DNA of 64,000 nucleotides from Alkalibacillus aidingensis. GTDB lineage: Bacteria > Bacillota > Bacilli > Bacillales > Alkalibacillaceae. The notes under the pieces are model-generated. The model was not told the DNA's origin, made no database searches, and saw only the letters and a program-made list of their open reading frames with translations. Positions 45,184 to 55,238 of this stretch are shown in pieces (position 1 is the first letter of the stretch; the number at the start of each line of letters is the position of its first letter). The stretch spans positions 1 to 64,000 of the forward strand of contig NZ_JABXWU010000003.1 in NCBI RefSeq assembly GCF_014595945.1. Reading direction: 5' to 3'. A program made the translations under genes and the position numbers.

Positions 45184-45234
45184 ATTCGACAAAATCCGGG
45201 AGGTGCCTGTCACCCCTCGAGGAGTGACAGGCAC
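45184..45234 (-). repeat. REP-like dispersed repeat, copy A (full form)
   Basis: On the minus strand: GTGCCTGTCAC and its inverted copy around CTCGAGG, followed by the tail TCCCGGATTTTGTCGAAT. It starts 3 nt after the stop of the minus-strand MFS gene and can fold as a perfect 11-bp hairpin, possibly serving as terminator. Related copies at 48508, 52205 and 54670. Confidence 0.85.
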
Positions 45235-45237
45235 GCC

Positions 45238-46470
45238 TTACGCTACCTTCCTGAATGGGTGAAGGAGTAACCGGATAAATAGGGTGAAGAATATTATGGT
45301 GGAGATTCCGAATAGGATTGGGATTGGCAGCCATTCTGCCCATAGTCCTGCGATGAAAAGGCCTAGGGGAAGGGTTAGTTTCATGAACATGGATGATGTG
45401 CCAGCGACACGTCCTAATAAATGGTTAGGGGTGAACTCCTGTCTGATCGTGTGGTAAACAATATTAGATACGGTCGTTGAAAACGTCCTGACAGCGAGTG
45501 CTAACCCAATCACCCACCAAGAAGGCGCCATCATTAACCAAGCCATGGCGACAACATCAATGAGTAAACAATACGTGAAAATCACACCCCTGCCTAATAG
45601 CTTTCTGATCTTACTGATGACCAACGCTCCAAGAAGCCCACCAATTGCTGAAATCGAAAACATCCAGCCAATTTGATCCTCTGTCGCCTTCAATTGATCG
45701 GCTACGTAAAAAATCAGTACGCCAATAACCAGACTAGAAGCAAAATTAACAAATAGTACGGTAATCGTTGGTGTTAATAACGTTTTGTTATCTAAGAGCT
45801 CATCAATGCCTTCTTTCATATCTCTCCATATACTATTGGATTCCTGCTTTTGCTCACTTTCTACAGGCATTTGAAGGAAATGCATGCACATAAACAAAAT
45901 GAGTAAACAAATGCTGTAGATTGCTAATGTAGAAGTATAGGAAAATAGCAAAATTAATGATCCAGCTATTCCGGGGCCAACCGTGCGAATTAATGTACTT
46001 ACAAAAGATAATTTCGCGTTTGCTGATGTTAGTTGCTCTTTGGTGACTAGCTGTGGAATCACCGAGTGGTGTGCGTTTCCAAAGGTATATCCGGCAGAAG
46101 ACAATATAAAACCTAACAAGAATAAGTGCCAAAGTTGAATGTGGTTAGTAGTTAACAAAAGCAGGATCAACACCATCGCGATCACTTGGATGAAACTAGT
46201 CCATTGCATCATACGTTTACGGTTAAAGCGATCAACAAACACACCTGCAATCATTCCTAAAAATATATTCGGGAAAAATTCAATTGCTCTCATCGTACTC
46301 ATTGCTAAGGCTGATTGGCTCATATGATAAATTAATAGTGGAATAGCAATAGTGTACATTTGTGACCCAAAGCTTGCGATCGTTGAGCCTCCCCATAATA
46401 GCAAGAAGTTTTTATTTTTCCATAATGTTCCACTTTCCTCTTTGATAGGCGTGGCTTCTCTCGTTATCAA
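45238..46470 (-). CDS. MFS transporter, probable efflux
   Basis: 410 residues, TTG start behind AGGGGGGATC. Twelve spans; GMIAGVFVDRFNRKRMM between spans 2 and 3 is the conserved MFS loop, in the DHA3 (MefA-like) style. Divergent from an SgrR-like regulator at 46587, a pairing that recalls SgrR with the sugar exporter SetA and the Bacillus yhjP-yhjO pair. The stop codon abuts a REP-like repeat. Confidence 0.85.
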   Translation of the reverse strand: MITREATPIKEESGTLWKNKNFLLLWGGSTIASFGSQMYTIAIPLLIYHMSQSALAMSTMRAIEFFPNIFLGMIAGVFVDRFNRKRMMQWTSFIQVIAMVLILLLLTTNHIQLWHLFLLGFILSSAGYTFGNAHHSVIPQLVTKEQLTSANAKLSFVSTLIRTVGPGIAGSLILLFSYTSTLAIYSICLLILFMCMHFLQMPVESEQKQESNSIWRDMKEGIDELLDNKTLLTPTITVLFVNFASSLVIGVLIFYVADQLKATEDQIGWMFSISAIGGLLGALVISKIRKLLGRGVIFTYCLLIDVVAMAWLMMAPSWWVIGLALAVRTFSTTVSNIVYHTIRQEFTPNHLLGRVAGTSSMFMKLTLPLGLFIAGLWAEWLPIPILFGISTIIFFTLFIRLLLHPFRKVA

Positions 46471-46586
46471 ATAGATCCCCCCTGATTGATTATTTGAATA
46501 ATGAAAGTATACTGAAATAAAAGGTGTATAAAAAGTGACGATTTAAATGATGGATAGTTCACCTTTTTCATAATGGAGGGAATAGG

Positions 46587-48317
46587 ATGAAGTATATCGA
46601 TTATGCCAAAATGATAGCAACACATTTTCCGAAAAATAAACCGGTAGAAACCTCTATTGACGATATTTCAGGGTTGCTAAAATGTTCAGAACGACATACT
46701 AAAACGGTCTTAAACTATTTGGATCAAAGAGAGTGGATCCGTTGGGATGTCCAACGTGGTCGGGGGAAAAAACCAAAAATCACGCTATTACTAGATCATG
46801 CAGATATTTTATTTGAAGAAGCAGTGAAACTCTCTAAAGAAGAACACTATCAAAAGGCCTTTCAAATTGTTCAGCGTTTAAATGTAAATCTCCAAGAAAA
46901 GTTTCAAGGTTGGCTAAAGACGAATGCGGGAATTTTTAAAACGAATTCGGTTAAGGAACAGGAATTAGATATTCTCAAATATCCTTTTTACGAAACGAAT
47001 CTAGTAATGGATCCCATCTTCCTTAAATCAAGGCATGATGGCCACATGGTACAACAGATTTATGATCGCCTAGTGGAATATGATTCTAAGACCGATCAGT
47101 TAACGCCACAACTTGCTCACCACTGGGAATCGACCGATGGGGTGAAGTGGACATTTTATTTACGTAAATGTGTGTTGTTTCATGATGGGAAGGTGCTAAC
47201 GGCACGTGATGTTCGTGCAACTATTGAACGATTAGGTGAAGATGATGTTATTACACAAAATATCGATAGAATAGAAATTATCAATCAAACAGTCATCGTT
47301 TTTCATTTAAATGAAACAAACTTTCTCTTCCCTAGATACTTAGCAAACTTGAAAGTCTCGATTATTCCTAGTGATGTTTTAGAAAAGGATCAAAAGGCAT
47401 TGCTCAAACACCCTATAGGGACAGGTCCTTTTCAGTTGATAAGAAATGACGATGATCTCATCCGTTTAGACGTGTTTGAGAATTACTTTGGCTATAGACC
47501 ATGGCTTGATCGAGTTGAAATCATCAAAGTCCCAGATAAATTCGACAGCAGTCGTGAAATGCCGTTATTTTTATACGCGCCTGACGACTCTTGGGATAAA
47601 ATTACAACCCAAGAAGAAGGGGCTGATTACATCATATTTAATTGTCGAAAACAAGGGCCTATGAGCGATGAGTCGTTAAGAAAGTGGACATGTGAACAGA
47701 TTAATGCTGAAGAATTCTGTTTAGCACGTGAAATGGTTGCTCATAGTTTACTGACTCAAAGATCTCTGGAATTTAAGTCTAGTAATGGTAAGCGCCCTAC
47801 CGAGGAAAAATCACCACAATTAACCTTAAAGATTGCCGCACAACAAATTCGAAAGGGGGCTAACCATGAACGAGAAGCCCTTATTTTTCAACAACAATTG
47901 AATAAAATTGGTGTGGATTCTAGCGTTGAGGCAGTTCCTATCCATCAATTAATTCAACCTGATGTACTCGATCAGTATGACATCGTTGTTGGAGGGGTTG
48001 CATTATCAGACGATCATCTTTTATCAGTACTGACAACATTGCAGTCCAATCGAATGGTCATTTATCCATGTTTGAGTGATGAGTTGAAGAAGGAAGTTAA
48101 CGATGGAATATCTATGATCAAGGAAAATCAGAATACCAATGTGCAATGGGATATTTATTTTAAGGTCGAGGAATATCTCAAATCTGAACATGCGATTTTC
48201 TTCTTGAGTCATCGCACACACACCATCTACCAATCAGAAACGAGCCCCTACATGGGAATAGAGTTAGATAGTCATGGAAGAGTTGATTACCGAAACGTGT
48301 GGAAACGACAGGAATAA
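46587..48317 (+). CDS. SgrR-like regulator with solute-binding domain
   Basis: 576 residues, ATG behind GGAGGG. N-terminal SgrR-type winged helix (DDISGLLKCSERHTKTVLNYL, about 25-50), then a family 5 (oligopeptide/SgrR) solute-binding domain without signal peptide (LVMDPIFLKSRHDGHMVQQIYDRLVEYDS; PQLAHHWES; FYLRKCVLFHDGKVLTARDV). A cytosolic ligand sensor that likely controls the divergent MFS gene; ligand unknown. Confidence 0.88.
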   Translation: MKYIDYAKMIATHFPKNKPVETSIDDISGLLKCSERHTKTVLNYLDQREWIRWDVQRGRGKKPKITLLLDHADILFEEAVKLSKEEHYQKAFQIVQRLNVNLQEKFQGWLKTNAGIFKTNSVKEQELDILKYPFYETNLVMDPIFLKSRHDGHMVQQIYDRLVEYDSKTDQLTPQLAHHWESTDGVKWTFYLRKCVLFHDGKVLTARDVRATIERLGEDDVITQNIDRIEIINQTVIVFHLNETNFLFPRYLANLKVSIIPSDVLEKDQKALLKHPIGTGPFQLIRNDDDLIRLDVFENYFGYRPWLDRVEIIKVPDKFDSSREMPLFLYAPDDSWDKITTQEEGADYIIFNCRKQGPMSDESLRKWTCEQINAEEFCLAREMVAHSLLTQRSLEFKSSNGKRPTEEKSPQLTLKIAAQQIRKGANHEREALIFQQQLNKIGVDSSVEAVPIHQLIQPDVLDQYDIVVGGVALSDDHLLSVLTTLQSNRMVIYPCLSDELKKEVNDGISMIKENQNTNVQWDIYFKVEEYLKSEHAIFFLSHRTHTIYQSETSPYMGIELDSHGRVDYRNVWKRQE

Positions 48318-48322
48318 TACTG

Positions 48323-48462
48323 ATATCGACATTCAACATAAAATATCGACACTTTGGAAGGTTTTATCGACAGTTATAGTGAGGTTAACGACACTCACGG
48401 AGAGATTAACGACACTCATGAAAAGATATCGACACTTAACATGAAATTAACGACACTAAATG
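48323..48462 (+). repeat. Seven-unit 20/21-bp tandem repeat
   Basis: CGAC occurs at 48327, 48347, 48368, 48389, 48410, 48430 and 48451, each inside a unit like TTAACGACACTCAnnnAnAGA. The units diverge. In one frame they read as seven-residue repeats (VNDTHGE, INDTHEK). It lies between the SgrR-like gene and copy B of the REP-like repeat. Confidence 0.85.
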
Positions 48463-48507
48463 GTTCTACAGACTGGTGTACATATCTATTTTCCATGTTG
48501 ACATCAG

Positions 48508-48548
48508 ATTCGACAAAATCCGAGAGGTGCCTGTCACCCCTCAGGCAC
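48508..48548 (-). repeat. REP-like dispersed repeat, copy B (internal deletion)
   Basis: Same as copy A but lacking ten bases of the central loop and arm (CGAGGAGTGA), so the hairpin is lost. It ends three nt from the stop codon of the CotF-like gene on the minus strand. Confidence 0.8.
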
Positions 48549-48551
48549 GCT

Positions 48552-49070
48552 CTACAAAAGATGTTGGAAATTTCGGTAGGTATTGATCTGTTCTTGTTCA
48601 GATGTATGAGGAGTAAACTCCCAGCCCATTTCTTTAATGATTTCTGCATATTTTTCTTTTATTTGATATTGTTGTAATGCCATTTCAATATGTGCATTCT
48701 TTACATTAGTGTCTTGCATCATCAAGGCAGATTTATAATTTTCATTTGACATATTTTTTGCTGTGTTGTGTGCTTCTAAAGCTATCCATTTATTGTTAGT
48801 GGTATTTTCATATCCTTCTTTCTCGGAATAATGTCTTACGAAAGGGGCATTTAAAGGTGGAACTTCAATGTAATTATTATATTCTGGATTTATTAGACCT
48901 AACATAATCCAGACGTGCATACGCATCGTCGTTTCTTGCAATTCTATAATATCTCTCAATCGCTTGTTTGTTACTGTACCTTTGTAGGCCTTCAACTTAT
49001 TTATGACACCCTCATGAGCTGATAGATGTTCAGCCATTAGCCCAAGGTCAATAGCAGGTAATGAAGTCAT
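48552..49070 (-). CDS. CotF-like spore coat protein
   Basis: 172-residue helical, ferritin-like protein with the coat F pattern (MAEHLSAHEGVINKLKAY, ELQETTMRMHVWIM, ALMMQDTNVKNAHIEMALQQ). ATG with GAGGTG upstream. Suggests a spore-forming host. Confidence 0.75.
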   Translation of the reverse strand: MTSLPAIDLGLMAEHLSAHEGVINKLKAYKGTVTNKRLRDIIELQETTMRMHVWIMLGLINPEYNNYIEVPPLNAPFVRHYSEKEGYENTTNNKWIALEAHNTAKNMSNENYKSALMMQDTNVKNAHIEMALQQYQIKEKYAEIIKEMGWEFTPHTSEQEQINTYRNFQHLL

Positions 49071-49284
49071 TTTGACACCTCTTCAATTGAATGTAGGTTA
49101 TTTCATCATAATGTATGCATTGAAAATCATTTTGTTCAGGACAAACCCTCTTAATGTGGTTATGTATTGACGGATCAATAGAAAATACGATTGTGAATTC
49201 ATAAAGTTGGTGAGAGTTATTTAAGCTGTTTTTACGGAATATAGTAAACTATTATTTAATTGGTGCTATTACATACATAAATTT

Positions 49285-49292
49285 GGTATAAT
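49285..49292 (+). promoter_or_regulatory. Extended -10 promoter of the hydrolase gene
   Basis: TGGTATAAT: a TGn motif directly before TATAAT (49287-49292), about 60 bp before the start codon. The -35 match is weak. Confidence 0.5.
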
Positions 49293-49352
49293 GAGATTAT
49301 TGTAAATATATTGAAGTTTGAAAATGCTCTAGTAAGCAAAGGGGAATTTAAA

Positions 49353-50306
49353 TTGAAAAAGAAAATCCTGATTGTATTAGGGAGTCTTTTTACTTTATTT
49401 TTTGTCGCATTGATTTTCGCAGGCAATTATTTTTATAGTGAAGGGATTAAACGGGGGACTGAGGTTGAACTTCATCGTGAAGATGAGGTTGTTAATGTTG
49501 TCGCAACTGAAGGAGACGAAACGCTTGTTGGTGAAGCAAATGAATGGTTTGATGAACAGGATACAGAAATCCTTGAGCACATATCTTATGATGATTTAAA
49601 CCTAGTTGCACAGTTTATAGAGAATAGTTCTGACGAAGGTCGAGCAGTTATTCTAGCTCACGGGTTTCGAAATACAGGAGATGATATGGGGAAGTTAGCG
49701 AAACTTTACTATGATAAGGGATTTGATATTCTTTTACCTGATGCTCGTGGTCACGGGGAAAGTGAAGGAGATTACATAGGCTATGGCTGGCATGATCGGT
49801 TAGATATTTTGGATTGGATTGACGTCTTAATTAGAGATTATGGCGTAGAAGATATCATTTTACATGGGAATTCAATGGGAGCAGCAACTGTTTTAATGAC
49901 TAGTGGTGAAGAGCTTCCGGATGAAGTGAAGGGTATTGTTGCCGATAGTGGCTATAGTACAGTGAAAGAAGAGTTGGCTTATCAATTGGAGAATATTTAT
50001 GGTCTTCCACCATTTCCATTACTTGATGTGACCAGTGTGATCACGAATATTCGTGCAGGTTATTATTTAGGTGAAGCATCAGCAGTTGATCAAGTACAAG
50101 AGAATACACTGCCTTTATTGATCATCCATGGAGAGGGTGATGATTTAGTACCAACAACCATGGCACATGAGATTTTTGAAGCAGCCGGTGGGGATAAAGA
50201 ATTGTGGCTTGTTCCTGATGCGGGTCATACGAAGGCATTTGATAATGTTACTGAAGAGTTTTATGAGCGTGTAAGTAATTTTATTGTGAATGTATTGGAT
50301 GAATAA
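49353..50306 (+). CDS. Membrane-anchored alpha/beta hydrolase
   Basis: 317 residues from the TTG at 49353 behind AAAGGGGAA; the upstream TTG at 49311 lacks a site. One N-terminal span (KILIVLGSLFTLFFVALIFAG), then a hydrolase with AHGFRNTGDD (oxyanion loop), DARGHGESEGDY, nucleophile Ser in GNSMGA, Asp in HGEGDDLVP and His in DAGHTKAF. Like Bacillus YqkD; the active domain probably faces outside. Substrate unknown. Confidence 0.85.
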   Translation: MKKKILIVLGSLFTLFFVALIFAGNYFYSEGIKRGTEVELHREDEVVNVVATEGDETLVGEANEWFDEQDTEILEHISYDDLNLVAQFIENSSDEGRAVILAHGFRNTGDDMGKLAKLYYDKGFDILLPDARGHGESEGDYIGYGWHDRLDILDWIDVLIRDYGVEDIILHGNSMGAATVLMTSGEELPDEVKGIVADSGYSTVKEELAYQLENIYGLPPFPLLDVTSVITNIRAGYYLGEASAVDQVQENTLPLLIIHGEGDDLVPTTMAHEIFEAAGGDKELWLVPDAGHTKAFDNVTEEFYERVSNFIVNVLDE

Positions 50307-50395
50307 CTCAAATCATTGGGGCGATAGACCACCCCACCTCACACCAAGTTGGACATAGGAATACTGTAGGGTAGGTAATCAAAAGGAGTGGAAAG

Positions 50396-50923
50396 ATGTA
50401 TTTTAACAGACATCCGTTAAATTGCCTTTATGAACAGCAGTATGTTGTGATGCCTGGGGATACGTTTTATGACTTAGCTAAGCGTTATAACATTGCTGTT
50501 CTCAGCATTCAACAGGCAAACCCTGATGTAAATCCAAATCAGCTGTATGTTGGTCAAGTGATCTGTTTACCATTGCCCCCTTGTGAAAACGGGTTCCAAT
50601 ACATTGTCAAACCAAATGATACTTTATTTCAGATTGCTCAGATGTATCATGTCACGGTGGAAGATCTTTTATCTAGAAATCCAGGAGTTAACCCATATCA
50701 ACTTCGATTAGGGCAACCTCTTTGTATTCCACCAAGTATTGATGTGGAGTGTCCAATGGAGCGATTCCATATTGTAAGGCCTGGAGAAACGTTGTATGAG
50801 TTAGCTGATCGTTTTAATATCCCGTTAGAATCACTTATTGCGATTAATGATCATATTGAAAATCCAGATCATGTTCAAGTTGGCACAAAACTTTGTGTGC
50901 CTAGTCCGATGGTGACACCATAA
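50396..50923 (+). CDS. Triple LysM-domain protein
   Basis: 175 residues, ATG behind AAAGGAGTGG. Three LysM modules (about 17-60, 66-108, 120-163), each with a PGDT/PNDT/PGET turn and CLP/CIP/CVP end. Modules bind peptidoglycan or chitin-like glycans. There is no signal peptide, as in spore-coat LysM proteins that assemble from the mother cell, so a spore role is possible. Confidence 0.85.
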   Translation: MYFNRHPLNCLYEQQYVVMPGDTFYDLAKRYNIAVLSIQQANPDVNPNQLYVGQVICLPLPPCENGFQYIVKPNDTLFQIAQMYHVTVEDLLSRNPGVNPYQLRLGQPLCIPPSIDVECPMERFHIVRPGETLYELADRFNIPLESLIAINDHIENPDHVQVGTKLCVPSPMVTP

Positions 50924-50938
50924 TAGGAGTGAATATAA

Positions 50939-50987
50939 ACACCTTCGATTTAGTGAGAGATATCCTAAATCGAAGGTGTATTTTTTG
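50939..50987 (+). terminator. Terminator of the LysM gene
   Basis: ACACCTTCGATTTAG / CTAAATCGAAGGTGT perfect stem followed by ATTTTTT. Confidence 0.93.
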
Positions 50988-51024
50988 AGAGGGCCCTTTC
51001 ACGTAAATCATTATGACGGGCATT

Positions 51025-51420
51025 TTATCTTCTACTAATAATTCCATTAAATATTTCTCCACCATTTTCATAAATATTAATGATTCTCAGACGGTTAGTT
51101 TGTTTATTAAATATGGTTTTGTAATGTTTATTCCCGTTGATTACAAGGAACATGATACGTTTTTGGTTGTTATCAGTTGTTAGTTCAAATGTATATCCTT
51201 GGTCCCCGACTTGTTCTATGATTGTCTTGTGTTCTGGTAGAGATAGTAAGTGGTTTTCTAGAATGGGTTCAATGTTGTTATTTTCTGTATGACTCACTTG
51301 AATGTTTTTATGTTCTATTTGATTATCATGTGTGGAGGCTAAGTTGTCGGACTGAACTTCATTGTTGCAAGCGGTTAATGCCAAGGTTAAGACAATAAGT
51401 ACATAAATCAATTGATACAT
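51025..51420 (-). CDS. Hypothetical lipoprotein
   Basis: 131 residues, ATG behind AAGGAG. Signal peptide with lipobox LTAC (Cys at residue 18), a His/Asn-rich linker, and a small C-terminal domain. No family recognised. Confidence 0.65.
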   Translation of the reverse strand: MYQLIYVLIVLTLALTACNNEVQSDNLASTHDNQIEHKNIQVSHTENNNIEPILENHLLSLPEHKTIIEQVGDQGYTFELTTDNNQKRIMFLVINGNKHYKTIFNKQTNRLRIINIYENGGEIFNGIISRR

Positions 51421-51582
51421 TTAAGAATCATCTCCTTCTAAATATTAACATTTTCTGATTAAAGAGAATTATTCATTGGCTAAATAGTGGTAGTAATGGG
51501 CAATTGTTAAGCATGGAATTTGCAGTGTAAGAAATCCTTGTCCATAATAAAACTAACAGTACGTAAGGGAAGTAGGGGTTAG

Positions 51583-52143
51583 ATGAAGACAGAAGAGCAG
51601 TACTTTACTGAAGGAATCACGATACAGGATTATATGGATGAGATGAGTAAGTTAAAAGAAGAGAGTTTTAATGTTTATGAAAACTTCCAATTACCTAATG
51701 ACGGATTTCCTGAGGAATTAAGACAGCAGTCATTGCATTTCTTAGTCATTACAGAGGATTGGTGTGGCGATGCGATGATGATTAACCCAGTTATACGTCG
51801 ATTGGCTGAGCCAGCAAATATTGATATGCGCGTTGTATTAAGGGATGAGGATACTGATCTGATTGACCGTCATCTAACTAATGGTGGACGGGCGATCCCG
51901 ATTATTTTGGTTTTAAATGAGAGTGGAGAGCTAGTTGGAAAGTGGGGACCACGAGCGCCTGAAGTGCAACAAATAGTGGATGAAATGCGTGCACAACTTC
52001 CATCTAAAGACGACCCAGCTTTTGAGGAGAAACAAAAAGACATGATTAAGACGTTAACGAAAAAGTACTCTGAGGAGTCTACGCTTTGGTCATATGTATA
52101 CGAAAGCTTTAAGGAAAGCCTTCTAACCAGATCAATAAATTAG
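51583..52143 (+). CDS. Thioredoxin-fold protein with single active-site cysteine
   Basis: 186 residues, ATG preceded by GGGAAGTAGGGG. The redox loop is EDWCGDAMM: the first cysteine of CxxC is kept but the second is Ala, so ordinary disulfide exchange is unlikely. The cis-Pro loop (GRAIPIILVL) is present. Role unknown; a monothiol or chaperone role is possible. Confidence 0.8.
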   Translation: MKTEEQYFTEGITIQDYMDEMSKLKEESFNVYENFQLPNDGFPEELRQQSLHFLVITEDWCGDAMMINPVIRRLAEPANIDMRVVLRDEDTDLIDRHLTNGGRAIPIILVLNESGELVGKWGPRAPEVQQIVDEMRAQLPSKDDPAFEEKQKDMIKTLTKKYSEESTLWSYVYESFKESLLTRSIN

Positions 52144-52156
52144 TAACGTCATATTA

Positions 52157-52191
52157 AGAAAAAGACAGGAAATGATTCCTGTCTTTTTCTT
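52157..52191 (+). terminator. Terminator of the thioredoxin-fold gene
   Basis: AAAAAGACAGGAA / TTCCTGTCTTTTT stem. Confidence 0.9.
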
Positions 52192-52202
52192 TGAACATTT
52201 AT

Positions 52203-52724
52203 TTATTCGACAAAATTCGAGGAGTGACAGGCACCTATATTTCTGTAAACTTTTTTGGCTATTTCTTCTGTCGATGTTTTGAGTGCGATAGATAATTCTT
52301 TAAATAGGACATTTTGTGTCTCATTTAAAAGTTTGCTGTCATTGGCATGTAGTTTTTGTTCTTTTTGTTTAAGTTCGTGATTTTTACGTAACAACGTGTT
52401 GACGACTTTAGCAACTTTCATTCGATCTCCAGTATCTAATGTCTTAGTGAAATGCTGAGTTCTTAGATTTGGCCTCTCAATCCAGTCATAACCATCCGAA
52501 TTAAATGAATGCAAGATCTTTTCGGCTTCTTGTTGATTAACCAATTGCAGCATCGAAATTTGATCATTATCAATAGGAGTATTAATGGTTAATTGGTGAT
52601 TATTCTCAAGAGGGTGCAGGATATAATAAGTCTTCTTCATTCCGAATAAGTTTTTATCACAAATATCATCTACACGACAGATACCATGACCTGTATAAAC
52701 AACTAAATCCCCAATATTTAACAT
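52203..52724 (-). CDS. CarD/TRCF-type RNA polymerase-binding regulator, 3' end replaced by repeat
   Basis: 173 residues, ATG behind AAAGGAG. The N-terminal RNAP-interaction domain is clear (NIGDLVVYTGHGICRVDDI), followed by a helical DNA-binding half. The final residues GACHSSNFVE and the stop are encoded by a REP-like repeat (copy C), so the native C-terminus has been cut and replaced. Divergent from marR with overlapping promoters. Confidence 0.85.
   Translation of the reverse strand: MLNIGDLVVYTGHGICRVDDICDKNLFGMKKTYYILHPLENNHQLTINTPIDNDQISMLQLVNQQEAEKILHSFNSDGYDWIERPNLRTQHFTKTLDTGDRMKVAKVVNTLLRKNHELKQKEQKLHANDSKLLNETQNVLFKELSIALKTSTEEIAKKVYRNIGACHSSNFVE
52205..52235 (-). repeat. REP-like dispersed repeat, copy C (half form, inside carD 3' end)
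   Basis: Minus strand GGTGCCTGTCACTCCTCGAA, then TTTTGTCGAAT. It runs into the stop codon of the CarD-type gene. Confidence 0.85.
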
Positions 52725-52749
52725 GTGTTAACTCCTTTAAGGCGTATTA

Positions 52750-52762
52750 TCAACTAGGTTGA
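52750..52762. promoter_or_regulatory. Secondary palindrome in the carD leader
   Basis: TCAAC-TAG-GTTGA, the core of the 19-bp palindrome at 52793, placed near the carD transcription start. A second MarR site is likely. Confidence 0.6.
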
Positions 52763-52770
52763 CTATATTC

Positions 52771-52833
52771 ATTTTATACCTCTTGCCCCATTTTGTCAAC
52801 TTAGTTGACAATAGTAAACTGCTTTTGTATATT
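52771..52833. promoter_or_regulatory. Back-to-back promoters of carD and marR sharing one operator
   Basis: Palindrome TTGTCAACTTAGTTGACAA (52793-52811) contains TTGACA on both strands. Leftward: -35 at 52794-52799, 17-nt spacer, TAAAAT at 52771-52776 (minus strand). Rightward: -35 at 52805-52810, 17-nt spacer, TATATT at 52828-52833. A MarR dimer on the palindrome would block both promoters. Confidence 0.8.
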
Positions 52834-52871
52834 AAGGTCACTACAATTGGGAGTGAAGGAGTGAGTTCTAT

Positions 52872-53291
52872 TTGGAGCAACTAGATTTAATTGATCTTAT
52901 TAGTGAACGTCATTTACAACTTCGTCAGGTTTCAGAAAAAATATGGAACGACCAAAATAACATTGATTTATCCAATTCAGAATGGATTATCATATCGAAA
53001 ATTTATCATAAGAAACAAATGACTGTACCATGTATTGCCAAGCATGTAGATATCTCACGACAAGCTGCACATAAATTCATTAATCGTCTTGAAGAAAAAG
53101 GTGTGGTTTCAGTAAAAAGGCTAGAAAATAATAGAAATGCAAAGTTATTAGAATTAACCGAGTTAGGTAAGCAATGTTATGAAAAAAATGAAACCCTTAA
53201 AGCTCATCTAGAGAATCGGATTGCTGAAGAAATTGGTGAAGAACGTTTGAAGCAATTTAAACAGGTGCTAAAGGAAGATTGGGGGTTATAA
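52872..53291 (+). CDS. MarR-family transcriptional regulator
   Basis: 139 residues, TTG start behind GGAGTGAAGGAGTG. Winged helix with TVPCIAKHVDISRQAAHKFINRLEEKGVV (about 55-83) and the wing VKRLENNRNAKLLELTELG. Very likely autoregulated through the palindromes in front, which also cover carD. Confidence 0.9.
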   Translation: MEQLDLIDLISERHLQLRQVSEKIWNDQNNIDLSNSEWIIISKIYHKKQMTVPCIAKHVDISRQAAHKFINRLEEKGVVSVKRLENNRNAKLLELTELGKQCYEKNETLKAHLENRIAEEIGEERLKQFKQVLKEDWGL

Positions 53292-53316
53292 GAGGGTCGT
53301 TACCTTTAATTACCAT

Positions 53317-53345
53317 TGAATAAGTAGGGAGTACGTGGTATATTA
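53317..53345 (+). promoter_or_regulatory. Promoter of the candidate 6S RNA
   Basis: TTGAAT (53317-53322), 17-nt spacer, TATATT (53340-53345). Confidence 0.5.
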
Positions 53346-53346
53346 T

Positions 53347-53564
53347 TAATCACAGGGAACGAGCTTCCCAAACAACCAATTCTGCGTTGTTCGTAGCCTC
53401 ATTTTGTCTTAAACCTATAATTAATAAAAGGGAAACCTAAATTTTAAACTCAACAACATGCCTGTACATCTGGACGTTGGACAGTTTAATGCGGTTACCC
53501 ACCTGCTAAAGCGGGTTTACAAGACAATCCGAGTTACGACATCAGGCGGAATGGTCATTAATTA
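53347..53564 (+). ncRNA. Candidate 6S-type rod-like RNA
   Basis: A non-coding stretch that folds by long-range pairing into one irregular rod: TTAATCAC/GTCATTAA, CCAATTCTGC/GCGGAATGG, TCGTA..CTC/GAG..TACGA, TGTCTT..AAACC/GGTTT..AAGACA, then GGGAAACC/GGTTACCC, TTAAACT/AGTTTAA and CAAC/GTTG. An open bubble (CTATAATTAATAAAA opposite ACCTGCTAAAGC) sits mid-rod; its 5' side holds TATAAT and its 3' side can form a small hairpin (CCCACCTGCTAAAGCGGG). This is the 6S RNA architecture, which mimics an open promoter to bind RNA polymerase. Assignment is by structure, not by sequence match. Confidence 0.5.
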
Positions 53565-53594
53565 AATTCGTTTAAAATTAATTTGATTATATGT

Positions 53595-53639
53595 AGCTGT
53601 CTTAGAAGTCATTGGAGTGACTTTTGAGGCAGCTTTTTT
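53595..53639 (+). terminator. Terminator downstream of the candidate 6S RNA
   Basis: 17-bp stem (AGCTGTCTTAGAAGTCA with TGACTTTTGAGGCAGCT, some G-T pairs) followed by six T. Confidence 0.88.
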
Positions 53640-53873
53640 GTATGAATTTTTAGCATAGGTGATGTCTATGTGGGATTTGATTAGTAAAGTCGCTTTGCCT
53701 AAATGAGTTGTTTATTCACTTGATCGGGGCAGCTAGGAGATATTGCCGGATAGCGATGTCTCTACGACTGAAAAGAATAAGAATGTTTTAGAGGTAGTTT
53801 GGTCAAAGAGACGCGATTTCAATACCAAACCTCAGTGCTCAAAAATTCACACTATGACAGGAGCCACTTTAAA

Positions 53874-53977
53874 GAAGTCCTCTCGGTGACGTTTCATCCT
53901 GGTGTGAAGCGCAAAATGTAAGAGAGAAGTCCTCTCGGTGACGTTTCATCCCTGTGTGAAGCGCAAAATGTAAGAGA
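53874..53977. repeat. 52-bp tandem duplication
   Basis: Two adjacent 52-bp units starting GAAGTCCTCTCGGTGACG and ending AATGTAAGAGA, differing only around 53901/53953. Non-coding, between the terminator at 53639 and the DinB-family gene. The rest of 53640-54008 shows no gene. Confidence 0.85.
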
Positions 53978-54008
53978 CGACTGCTCAATAACATGAAAAT
54001 ACATAAAC

Positions 54009-54051
54009 AACCGGAACCGGGCTAGTCATTTCCAGCCCCGATTGTTTTATC
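54009..54051 (-). terminator. Terminator of the DinB-family gene
   Basis: Minus strand: AACAATCGGGGCT / AGCCCGGTTCCGGTTGTTT hairpin with a T-rich end. Confidence 0.7.
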
Positions 54052-54056
54052 GTTGA

Positions 54057-54533
54057 TTATTGTTGATCTTCTTTCGTTGGTCCCATCACCCCTGGAACAG
54101 GAAGTCCTGCTTGGCGTAGGAGGACTGTCATTTGACCTCGGTGATGTGTTTGGTGATCAATCAATGTTCTAAGTACAGCACCTCTAGGAAGCTGAGTACC
54201 AAAGCCTTCAACTTTTTCCTCCAGTTGTTCGTCTGTTAGTTCTTGTTCGACTTTTTCTTTGAGTTCATTGGCTACTTGCTTATAAGTATCTACAATCTGA
54301 CTAGCTTGGTTCGGTACTTTTTCAGGGTTCGCGTTAGTTTCAAGCTTGATTCCAACAACACTGGCAAAGAAAACGGGTGAAGTCGCTAAATGCCAACCAA
54401 GCCATCCAAGAGAACTATGTCCCTCGACAATTGCTTGATCTAACTGTTCGTCTGTCATCGCTTCAAATACCATTGTTGTTCCTTCTAATGCTTGTGACCA
54501 ATCAGCCACAAAGTCTGAGACTGTTCTGTACAT
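54057..54533 (-). CDS. DinB-family four-helix protein
   Basis: 158 residues, ATG with GGAGATG in front. Metal-site histidines of the DinB/YfiT fold are visible: LGWHLATSP and LIDHQTHHRGQM. Family members include thiol transferases and damage-induced proteins; the reaction here is unknown. Confidence 0.85.
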   Translation of the reverse strand: MYRTVSDFVADWSQALEGTTMVFEAMTDEQLDQAIVEGHSSLGWLGWHLATSPVFFASVVGIKLETNANPEKVPNQASQIVDTYKQVANELKEKVEQELTDEQLEEKVEGFGTQLPRGAVLRTLIDHQTHHRGQMTVLLRQAGLPVPGVMGPTKEDQQ

Positions 54534-54653
54534 AAAATCATCTCCATATATGTAGATTTTTGTTTCCTTATATTAGGTTATCAAATATATAAATTGATGA
54601 GAAATAAAGTGTTTGAGATGTTGTTAAAACATAGATATCTCAAGCAGCTGGTG

Positions 54654-55238
54654 CTACTTGTTTAGAGGTATTCGACAAAAATCGGGAAGTGACAGGCACC
54701 TTAAAACACGGGAGATAGGTAGTCCAACTACGTTGTAATAGTCACCGATGATTTGTTTAACGAACATTGCTCCTATGCTTTGGATGCCGTATGCTCCTGC
54801 TTTATCGTAGGGGTCATTGGTGGTTATGTACCATTTAATTTCTTCTTGGGATAATGGCCAGAATTCAACTTGGGTTTTTTCAACAAACGTGATTTCGTTA
54901 TCTTGAGAGCGGATCATGACCCCAGTAAAAACTTCATGAGTGTCTCCGCTTAATTGAGAAATCATCCTATAGGCTTCTTCCTTATCAGAAGGCTTTTCAA
55001 ATATTTTTTGATTGTATGAAACAACTGTATCTGCTGAAAGAATGACTTCGTTCGAATGATGAAAGGGAACGTTTTCCCCCTTAAGAATAGCTAACTGCTT
55101 CACTTTTTCTTCAGGATCATCCGTTTTAATTTGTGATTCGTCGACGTTTGGTTTACGAATGTCAAAAGGAATCTTTACTTGTTTTAATAACTCCTGCCTT
55201 CTAGGTGATGATGAGGCTAAGATAAGCGACTTTGTCAT
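54654..55238 (-). CDS. maf: Maf-type nucleoside triphosphate pyrophosphatase, C-terminus replaced by repeat
   Basis: 194 residues, ATG behind AGGAGGTA. House-cleaning enzyme that removes modified dTTP/UTP. N-terminal SSSPRRQELL, the catalytic ILSADTVV with its Asp, and the DPYDKAGAYGIQ substrate loop are intact. After VVGLPISR the reading frame passes through a REP-like repeat (copy D), giving the atypical tail CLSLPDFCRIPLNK. The core is complete, so activity may survive. Downstream in an operon with the flavoprotein gene (22-bp gap). Confidence 0.9.
   Translation of the reverse strand: MTKSLILASSSPRRQELLKQVKIPFDIRKPNVDESQIKTDDPEEKVKQLAILKGENVPFHHSNEVILSADTVVSYNQKIFEKPSDKEEAYRMISQLSGDTHEVFTGVMIRSQDNEITFVEKTQVEFWPLSQEEIKWYITTNDPYDKAGAYGIQSIGAMFVKQIIGDYYNVVGLPISRVLRCLSLPDFCRIPLNK
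54670..54700 (-). repeat. REP-like dispersed repeat, copy D (half form, inside maf 3' end)
   Basis: Minus strand GGTGCCTGTCACTTCCCGAT, then TTTTGTCGAAT, lying within the last codons of maf. Confidence 0.85.

Follow-up and report, generated by a model that had tools for sequence, protein, structure and literature searches.

REPs and their transposases have been investigated chiefly in Gram-negative bacteria. As far as the available portions of the published accounts go, REPs can lie no more than 20 bp from the 3' ends of ORFs, their GTAG termini can supply TAG stop codons, and intragenic REPs also occur (PMC3733652). Inverted REPs are found at rayt genes, the presence of REPs correlates with that of rayt, and in Thauera REPs are preferentially produced near rayt, according to the available part of a second study (PMC2817692). 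The accessible text of a third describes E. coli REPs no farther than 15 nt from a stop codon, and Bacillus subtilis is one of the genomes that it scanned with a broad definition of palindromes (PMC12306157). For genes of transposase subclass 2.1, the available sections of PMC6006769 report no REP-like sequences nearby. That REPs occur close to stop codons and to rayt genes is already known for other bacteria. What is new, as far as our searches reach, is the repeat family described here, the fact that its tag is not GTAG, and its association with a RAYT bearing the motifs of a subclass for which an absence of REPs has been reported. No paper describing this repeat family was found among the matches listed in full-text searches with pieces of the repeat and with RAYT or REP plus Bacillus, judged by title and abstract.

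The repeat was encountered in a window of 64 kb, the whole stretch of DNA that was analyzed, for which a preliminary description had reported four like copies lying in one orientation at the ends of genes (Table 1). All four are present at the positions given there, and their tags share one orientation, reading TTCGACAAAA on the plus strand and TTTTGTCGAA on the minus strand. They are not fully alike, however: only those at 52205 and 54670 have the plain 31-nt form, whereas those at 45184 and 48508 are composite and contain an inverted core. The cores lie at 45203-45213 and 45224-45234 (an inverted pair), 48527-48537, 52224-52234, and 54689-54699. The 48508 copy looks like a composite hairpin from which a part was deleted, so that its sole intact core is inverted relative to its own tag. 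The reported spacing of 3 nt between two of the copies and the stop codons preceding them proved correct, and the CarD and Maf genes both run into the repeat, which supplies their tails as had been proposed. The label "CotF-like" for the ORF at 48552-49070 is unsupported, as neither Pfam nor NCBIfam gave a family for it.

Table 1. Copies of the repeat, the genes that they adjoin or overlap, and an RNA gene in the 64-kb window
Feature	Coordinates	Strand	Details	Basis
REP copy 1	45184..45236	-	Composite: tag TTCGACAAAATCCGGGAG, inverted core 45203-45213, spacer, core 45224-45234	Sequence
MFS transporter gene	45238..46470	-	Stop codon 45238-45240, 3 nt from REP copy 1	Pfam MFS_1, 7.7e-33
REP copy 2	48508..48548	-	Looks like the composite form minus part of the hairpin (GTGCCTGTCACCCCTCAGGCAC)	Sequence
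172-aa ORF	48552..49070	-	Stop 3 nt from REP copy 2	ORF; no match in Pfam/NCBIfam
REP copy 3	52205..52236	-	Plain 31-nt form within the CarD tail	Sequence
CarD-family gene	52203..52724	-	Repeat and its edge supply the stop and the last 10 residues, GACHSSNFVE	Pfam CarD_TRCF_RID, CarD_C
6S RNA	53376..53556	+		Rfam RF00013, 85.6 bits
REP copy 4	54670..54701	-	Plain 31-nt form within the Maf tail	Sequence
Maf gene	54654..55238	-	Tail CLSLPDFCRIPLNK encoded by the repeat and flank	Pfam Maf, 3.2e-61

The 11-base core of the repeat, GTGACAGGCAC, occurs in 24 exact copies (15 forward, 9 reverse) in the 2,843,321-base genome that contains the window, and the reversed core, used as a control pattern, has 0 occurrences in that whole genome. 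Across 249 genomes of the order, the core averages 7.8 copies per genome against 0.49 for the reversed control. The copies are thus not due to chance. A reading of all 24 copies gives the plain unit as ATTCGACAAAWTTCGGGAA-GTGACAGGCAC-C, with the consensus 5'-ATTCGACAAAWTTCGGGNNGTGACAGGCACC-3'. The column profile delimits a conserved unit of about 31 nt with a separate tag, TTCGACA, in place of the GTAG/CGTC tags that define the described REP superfamilies. In relatives, a fuller form is encountered (L054) in which TCGGGTGGTG-ACAGG-CACCACCCGA is followed by the inverted tag; each plain copy thus corresponds to one half of a palindrome whose loop is ACAGG/CCTGT. Predicted folding of the single-stranded DNA parallels this difference: the full form has a z score of -5.9, copy 1 folds at -14.7 kcal/mol (z -4.4) and copy 2 at -7.8 kcal/mol (z -2.5), whereas plain copies, at -1.4 to -4.2 kcal/mol (z 0.2 to -1.6), do no better than shuffled sequences. 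The initial view of a mobile hairpin element is supported insofar as this is a REP family with a RAYT, but a lone 31-nt copy folds poorly.

As in REP/RAYT systems, the copies are mostly extragenic: those classed as inside a predicted gene number 1 of 24 in the window's genome, 11 of 64 in the related genome G017, and 6 of 46 rows in G256, two of these six being duplicate entries from overlapping loci. Rfam matched only the 6S RNA between 44000 and 56000, indicating that the repeat is covered by no known RNA family. Plasmid or phage carriers were considered and rejected, with two weak records in 72,556 plasmids and none in 50,697 phage records; given this near absence, the family looks chromosomal. 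Variants also exist. A subfamily in G017 (L056-L070) combines the same core with another tag, ATCTTGTTTCAC.., and one in G011 (L192-L227) has the core joined directly to TTGTCGAA; such variant-tag subfamilies are perhaps matched to different RAYTs. In G204 (L234-L236; C53:125334), the head of the repeat is partly duplicated in tandem (TTTAAGTGCCAG twice), and the duplications, which are absent from G060, have a stop codon on one side and an intact copy on the other.

Other repetitive sequences are present as well. The interval from a gene end to the REP copy at 48508 contains eight WAWCGACA-type motifs at a regular spacing of 20-21 nt (48304-48457), and arrays with a similar period of about 21 nt, built from other unit sequences, adjoin REPs at L127 and L128 of the same genome and at L209 of G011. 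In six locus sets, 11 arrays were found at a period of 20-22 (one of which, L227, resembles coding sequence), compared with 2, 1, and 0 at periods of 17-19, 23-25, and 26-28, respectively, and 0 in shuffled sequences. Further along the window, two tandem 52-nt units (AGAAGTCCTC...GTAAGAG) occupy 53873-53976. This unit matches more than 20 other places in the genome, several of them in tandem, and is by this distribution a second dispersed repeat family.

The preliminary description had suggested that a Y1 REP-associated transposase might be encoded elsewhere, and the genome has exactly one. The gene (C12:210625-211200 in the window's genome, G000) encodes 191 aa, is the sole Pfam Y1_Tnp match in the genome, and is flanked on both sides by inverted copies of the repeat (C12:210463 and C12:211410). 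Its product scores 51.7 bits against PF01797 (Y1_Tnp; cut-off 23) and 79.8 bits against NCBIfam NF047646 (REP_Tyr_transpos), just under the cut-off of 80. The HUH motif is NHFH and the Y motif is YIHLNP, both largely retained in 30 aligned relatives. The RAYT signature NP(L/V)(R/K)xG, given in the available portion of PMC2817692, is represented by NPVKAQ, in which the first part is present and the G is absent. The W position reads GHVFEKR, i.e., F-E as against the F-Q of subclass 2.1. No C-terminal HTH-like extension was found in the 191 aa, Y1_Tnp being the only Pfam match at E<=0.001; as this tail is not detectable, we claim shared motifs with subclass 2.1 and not membership in it. Among the best 30 RAYT loci from the 249 genomes of the order, the window's genome included, the exact core is present within the fetched 3.4-3.5 kb at 22 and absent at 8; with a relaxed pattern it is found at 24 of the 30, compared with 1 of 30 in shuffled sequence.

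The abundance of the repeat follows the transposase. When cores and RAYTs were scored in the single sample of 249 genomes, at least 5 cores were present in 39 of the 44 genomes with a close RAYT (E<=1e-48; median 20 cores), as against 24 of the 205 others (Fisher p 1.6e-23, with relatedness ignored). In each of the other five genomes of the close-RAYT group, between 1 and 3 cores were counted. Of those 24 genomes that have at least 5 cores and no close RAYT, 15 encode a more distant RAYT-like gene and 9 have none at E<=1e-8. Two genomes with no RAYT match at that threshold, G099 and G166, have 37 and 21 cores; in these, the transposase may have been lost or become too divergent. Copies also gather around the gene itself. 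Those within 50 kb of the RAYT, counted against a random expectation whose P values are too small since neighboring copies are not independent, amount to 12 of 13 in G090 (0.25 expected), 24 of 64 in G017 (1.9), 21 of 44 in G256 (0.9), 18 of 52 in G142 (1.0), 10 of 45 in G197 (1.1), 9 of 36 in G170 (0.9), and 4 of 24 in the window's genome (0.8). Clear clustering within this distance was not found in G011 (5 of 114 copies versus 3.0 expected). A comparison with the positions of dnaA in G256 and G090 revealed no common distance from it. Together, the repeat and its RAYT constitute a REP/RAYT system.

We examined the placement of the copies relative to stop codons using genes called by a custom, simple hexamer-based ORF caller. 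A first set held 260 distinct copies (24/24 from the window's genome, 64/64 from G017, 44/44 from G256, 100/114 from G011, and 28/195 from G097), of which 162 are single, 43 are two-armed, and 55 without a clear arm were set aside. The GGTGCC end lies 0-8 nt past a stop codon of the same strand ("docked") in 39 of the 162 single copies; random intergenic points give an expectation of 3.6 (standard deviation 1.9, maximum 10 in 2000 draws). In a further 8 of the 162, the stop lies 25-38 nt inside the repeat, usually as a TAA after GTCGAA, as in CarD. The mirror placement occurs in 0 of the 162 from the core and in 2 from the tag end, with 7 in a wide bin of -5 to 35 nt. In the window's genome, 7 of the 24 cores follow a stop on their own strand by 0 to 4 nt, and the CarD and Maf tails account for another two. 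A second set (12/13 copies from G090, 39/52 from G142, 17/36 from G170, and 24/45 from G197; 69 single, 5 two-armed, and 18 set aside) has 9 of 69 docked (13%), where chance predicts 1.5 (at most 6 in any of 2000 draws), with mirror placement in 0 from the core and 1 from the tag end. A forecast made before this set was analyzed had called for docking in 15% or more of the copies and mirror placement in 3% or fewer; the 15% was not reached, but the excess over chance was retained. The genome-wide placement is accordingly nonrandom, with an orientation-specific excess at stops both in the window's genome and in relatives, G142 being the exception with no stop-adjacent copies among its 24 single ones. 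Docking is real, and its strength differs among lineages.

The earlier proposal that the repeat rewrites C-termini is borne out by comparison with relatives. Three CarD proteins of the same genus end in KINQRLLKAV and have no GACHSSNFVE, and five Maf proteins of the genus lack the repeat-encoded tail, with ends such as SRVMKELKKIK; the core was not found in the 60 nt past the stops of either gene in these relatives. Against other members of the genus, the ends of CarD and Maf are thus rewritten. Similar cases are seen elsewhere. In one further protein GACHHPNFVE replaces EKV, a G017 protein is about 7 codons shorter than a relative 89% identical to it, and in another compared gene the protein end is unchanged, with the repeat 4 nt downstream. 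In yet another, the protein ends LELVK, followed by the stop and the repeat, where relatives (about 75-85% identical) have LELVTQ; the repeat sits exactly between the stop codon and the terminator, where the relatives have a spacer of about 15 nt. This arrangement is no more than suggestive of spacer loss. A homolog without a nearby core was available among the fetched loci for 22 of 74 docked genes, and 5 of these 22 comparisons were dropped because the homolog extends more than 12 residues beyond the alignment. In the remaining 17, the junction precedes the homolog's stop in 13, by 1 to 11 codons; it coincides with that stop in 1 and follows it in 3, although the homologs are 47-89% identical and ordinary C-terminal variation may account for some of these offsets. 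Empty sites were sought in the orthologous stretches of two close pairs. In G060/G204 the partner also has the repeat in 16 of 17 entries, and neither the single empty entry there nor the three in G139/G214 gave a clean junction. Odd tails such as GACH..NFVE, VPVT.R.LS, and CLSLPDFCR, which annotators might otherwise mistake for domains or sequencing errors, are explained by the repeat.

The reading that we favor, with a probability of roughly 0.8, is that the repeat is a REP maintained and spread by its own RAYT and that loss of flanking DNA together with purifying selection produces docking. We infer movement by the RAYT from the sequences and their arrangement, and the role of flanking-DNA loss and selection is likewise put forward conditionally. 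The repeat would be a short, nonautonomous element, half of a longer palindrome. The RAYT, as a Y1 HUH nuclease, would cut and join single-stranded DNA at the hairpin end (GGTG...CACC), and joining would often take place near its own gene, giving local clusters. Copies landing within genes or promoters would be lost; those at the extreme 3' end of an ORF would survive, their GGTGCC end attached to its stop or final codons. Removal of the intervening spacer would leave survivors abutting the last tolerated codon, and a join a few codons early would yield C-terminal rewriting as a by-product.

Docking could instead reflect target choice, the transposase preferring gene ends by way of a TA-type target in stop codons or of transcription-linked single-stranded DNA. 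We regard this as rather unlikely, even though the near absence of mirror placement would suit it and TAG is the stop at 23 of the 39 docked copies (TAA at 11, TGA at 5) compared with 155 of the 683 stops of all called genes (TAA 387, TGA 141), with the G of TAG serving as the first base of GGTGCC in 7 docked copies. All three stop codons are nevertheless used at docked copies, and the motif does not extend away from stops: TA precedes GGTGCC in only 9 of 145 undocked copies, as against 11 of 56 docked ones. A fixed TA/TAG target as the entire cause was therefore rejected, and no constant target sequence was found around the copies. Nor is orientation toward the lagging strand consistent across three complete genomes, being seen in G256 (33/44) and G090 (11/13) but not in G017 (31/64). 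The preliminary description had taken the element to target 3' ends. The polar excess at stops stands, but targeting as such does not follow from it, as selection or later deletion could give rise to it too. Docking after terminators was also considered: 27 of the 169 undocked copies have a T-run directly 5' of GGTGCC, versus 17 to 20 in three flanking controls (background, 7.9% of 16-mers), an excess too weak for us to make a claim.

A role in the mRNA, with stop-adjacent copies kept because structure after the stop lowers translation or protects the message, would account for docking being specific to the coding strand and to one orientation, and, in the available text of PMC12306157, E. coli REPs less than 16 nt from the stop can downregulate translation. 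Yet the plain copies that make up most of the docked set form the weak hairpins noted above, and the strongly folding two-armed copies are seldom docked at 0-8 nt (3/43). This reading is unlikely, and a ribosome-stalling hairpin in particular is disfavored as the driver, given that the docked form folds weakly. DNA-uptake, segregation, and protein-binding signals can occur as inverted pairs at gene ends, and the core is indeed short, conserved, and sometimes in inverted pairs. That the 11-mer is such a signal rather than part of a mobile element is nonetheless highly improbable: the conserved unit extends to about 31 nt with a separate tag, copy number follows one transposase clade, and copies flank the RAYT gene and cluster near it. 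Returning to a REP spread by its own RAYT, a more inclusive version may be entertained as a tentative possibility: a Bacillales-type REP/RAYT world, with a RAYT lineage of subclass-2.1-like motifs, supposed to be REP-free, in which the hairpin end would be joined in fixed orientation to ORF 3' ends, the repeat would spread outward from the RAYT locus, C-termini would be repeatedly rewritten or reset, and docking would be a product of the joining reaction (e.g., deletion on one side only, ending at the last tolerated codon) and not of survival bias. The family, which has many copies in this group of bacteria, also in genomes that encode few RAYTs (a single one in the window's genome), offers a new system for questions of REP movement, and it suits asking why REPs gather near their transposase and at stop codons.

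The REPtrons of Proteobacteria are among the closest described systems. As far as the available text of PMC2817692 and PMC3733652 goes, they and the present system both have a tyrosine transposase gene between inverted copies, many dispersed extragenic copies whose abundance follows the transposase, REPs beside ORF 3' ends that sometimes give a TAG stop, and enrichment near rayt (in theirs, for Thauera). Unlike those REPtrons, the tag here is TTCGACA and not GTAG/CGTC, a single copy is half a palindrome with a weak stem, the hosts belong to a single order of Bacillales-type genomes, and docking strongly favors one side. With the TnpAY1 subclass 2.1 (Bertels group 1), the RAYT shares motifs, NHFH and YIHLNP fitting its second variant, NH[YF]H and Y[IV]HLNP; in contrast to that subclass, whose genes have no REP-like sequences nearby according to the available part of the account, there is a clear repeat family here, no HTH tail is detected by Pfam, and the protein has 191 aa against a median of 238 (PMC6006769). 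The TIRYT elements, in the portion of PMC3733652 available, resemble the present system in placing RAYT relatives between non-GTAG inverted repeats, some of them repeated families, but their motif GGGGWSAS is missing from our repeat consensus. Finally, the Y1 HUH transposase domain is shared with IS200/IS605, from which the present system differs in that the gene has one copy per genome rather than being a multicopy insertion sequence and in that its Y motif ends in NP and not in Q.
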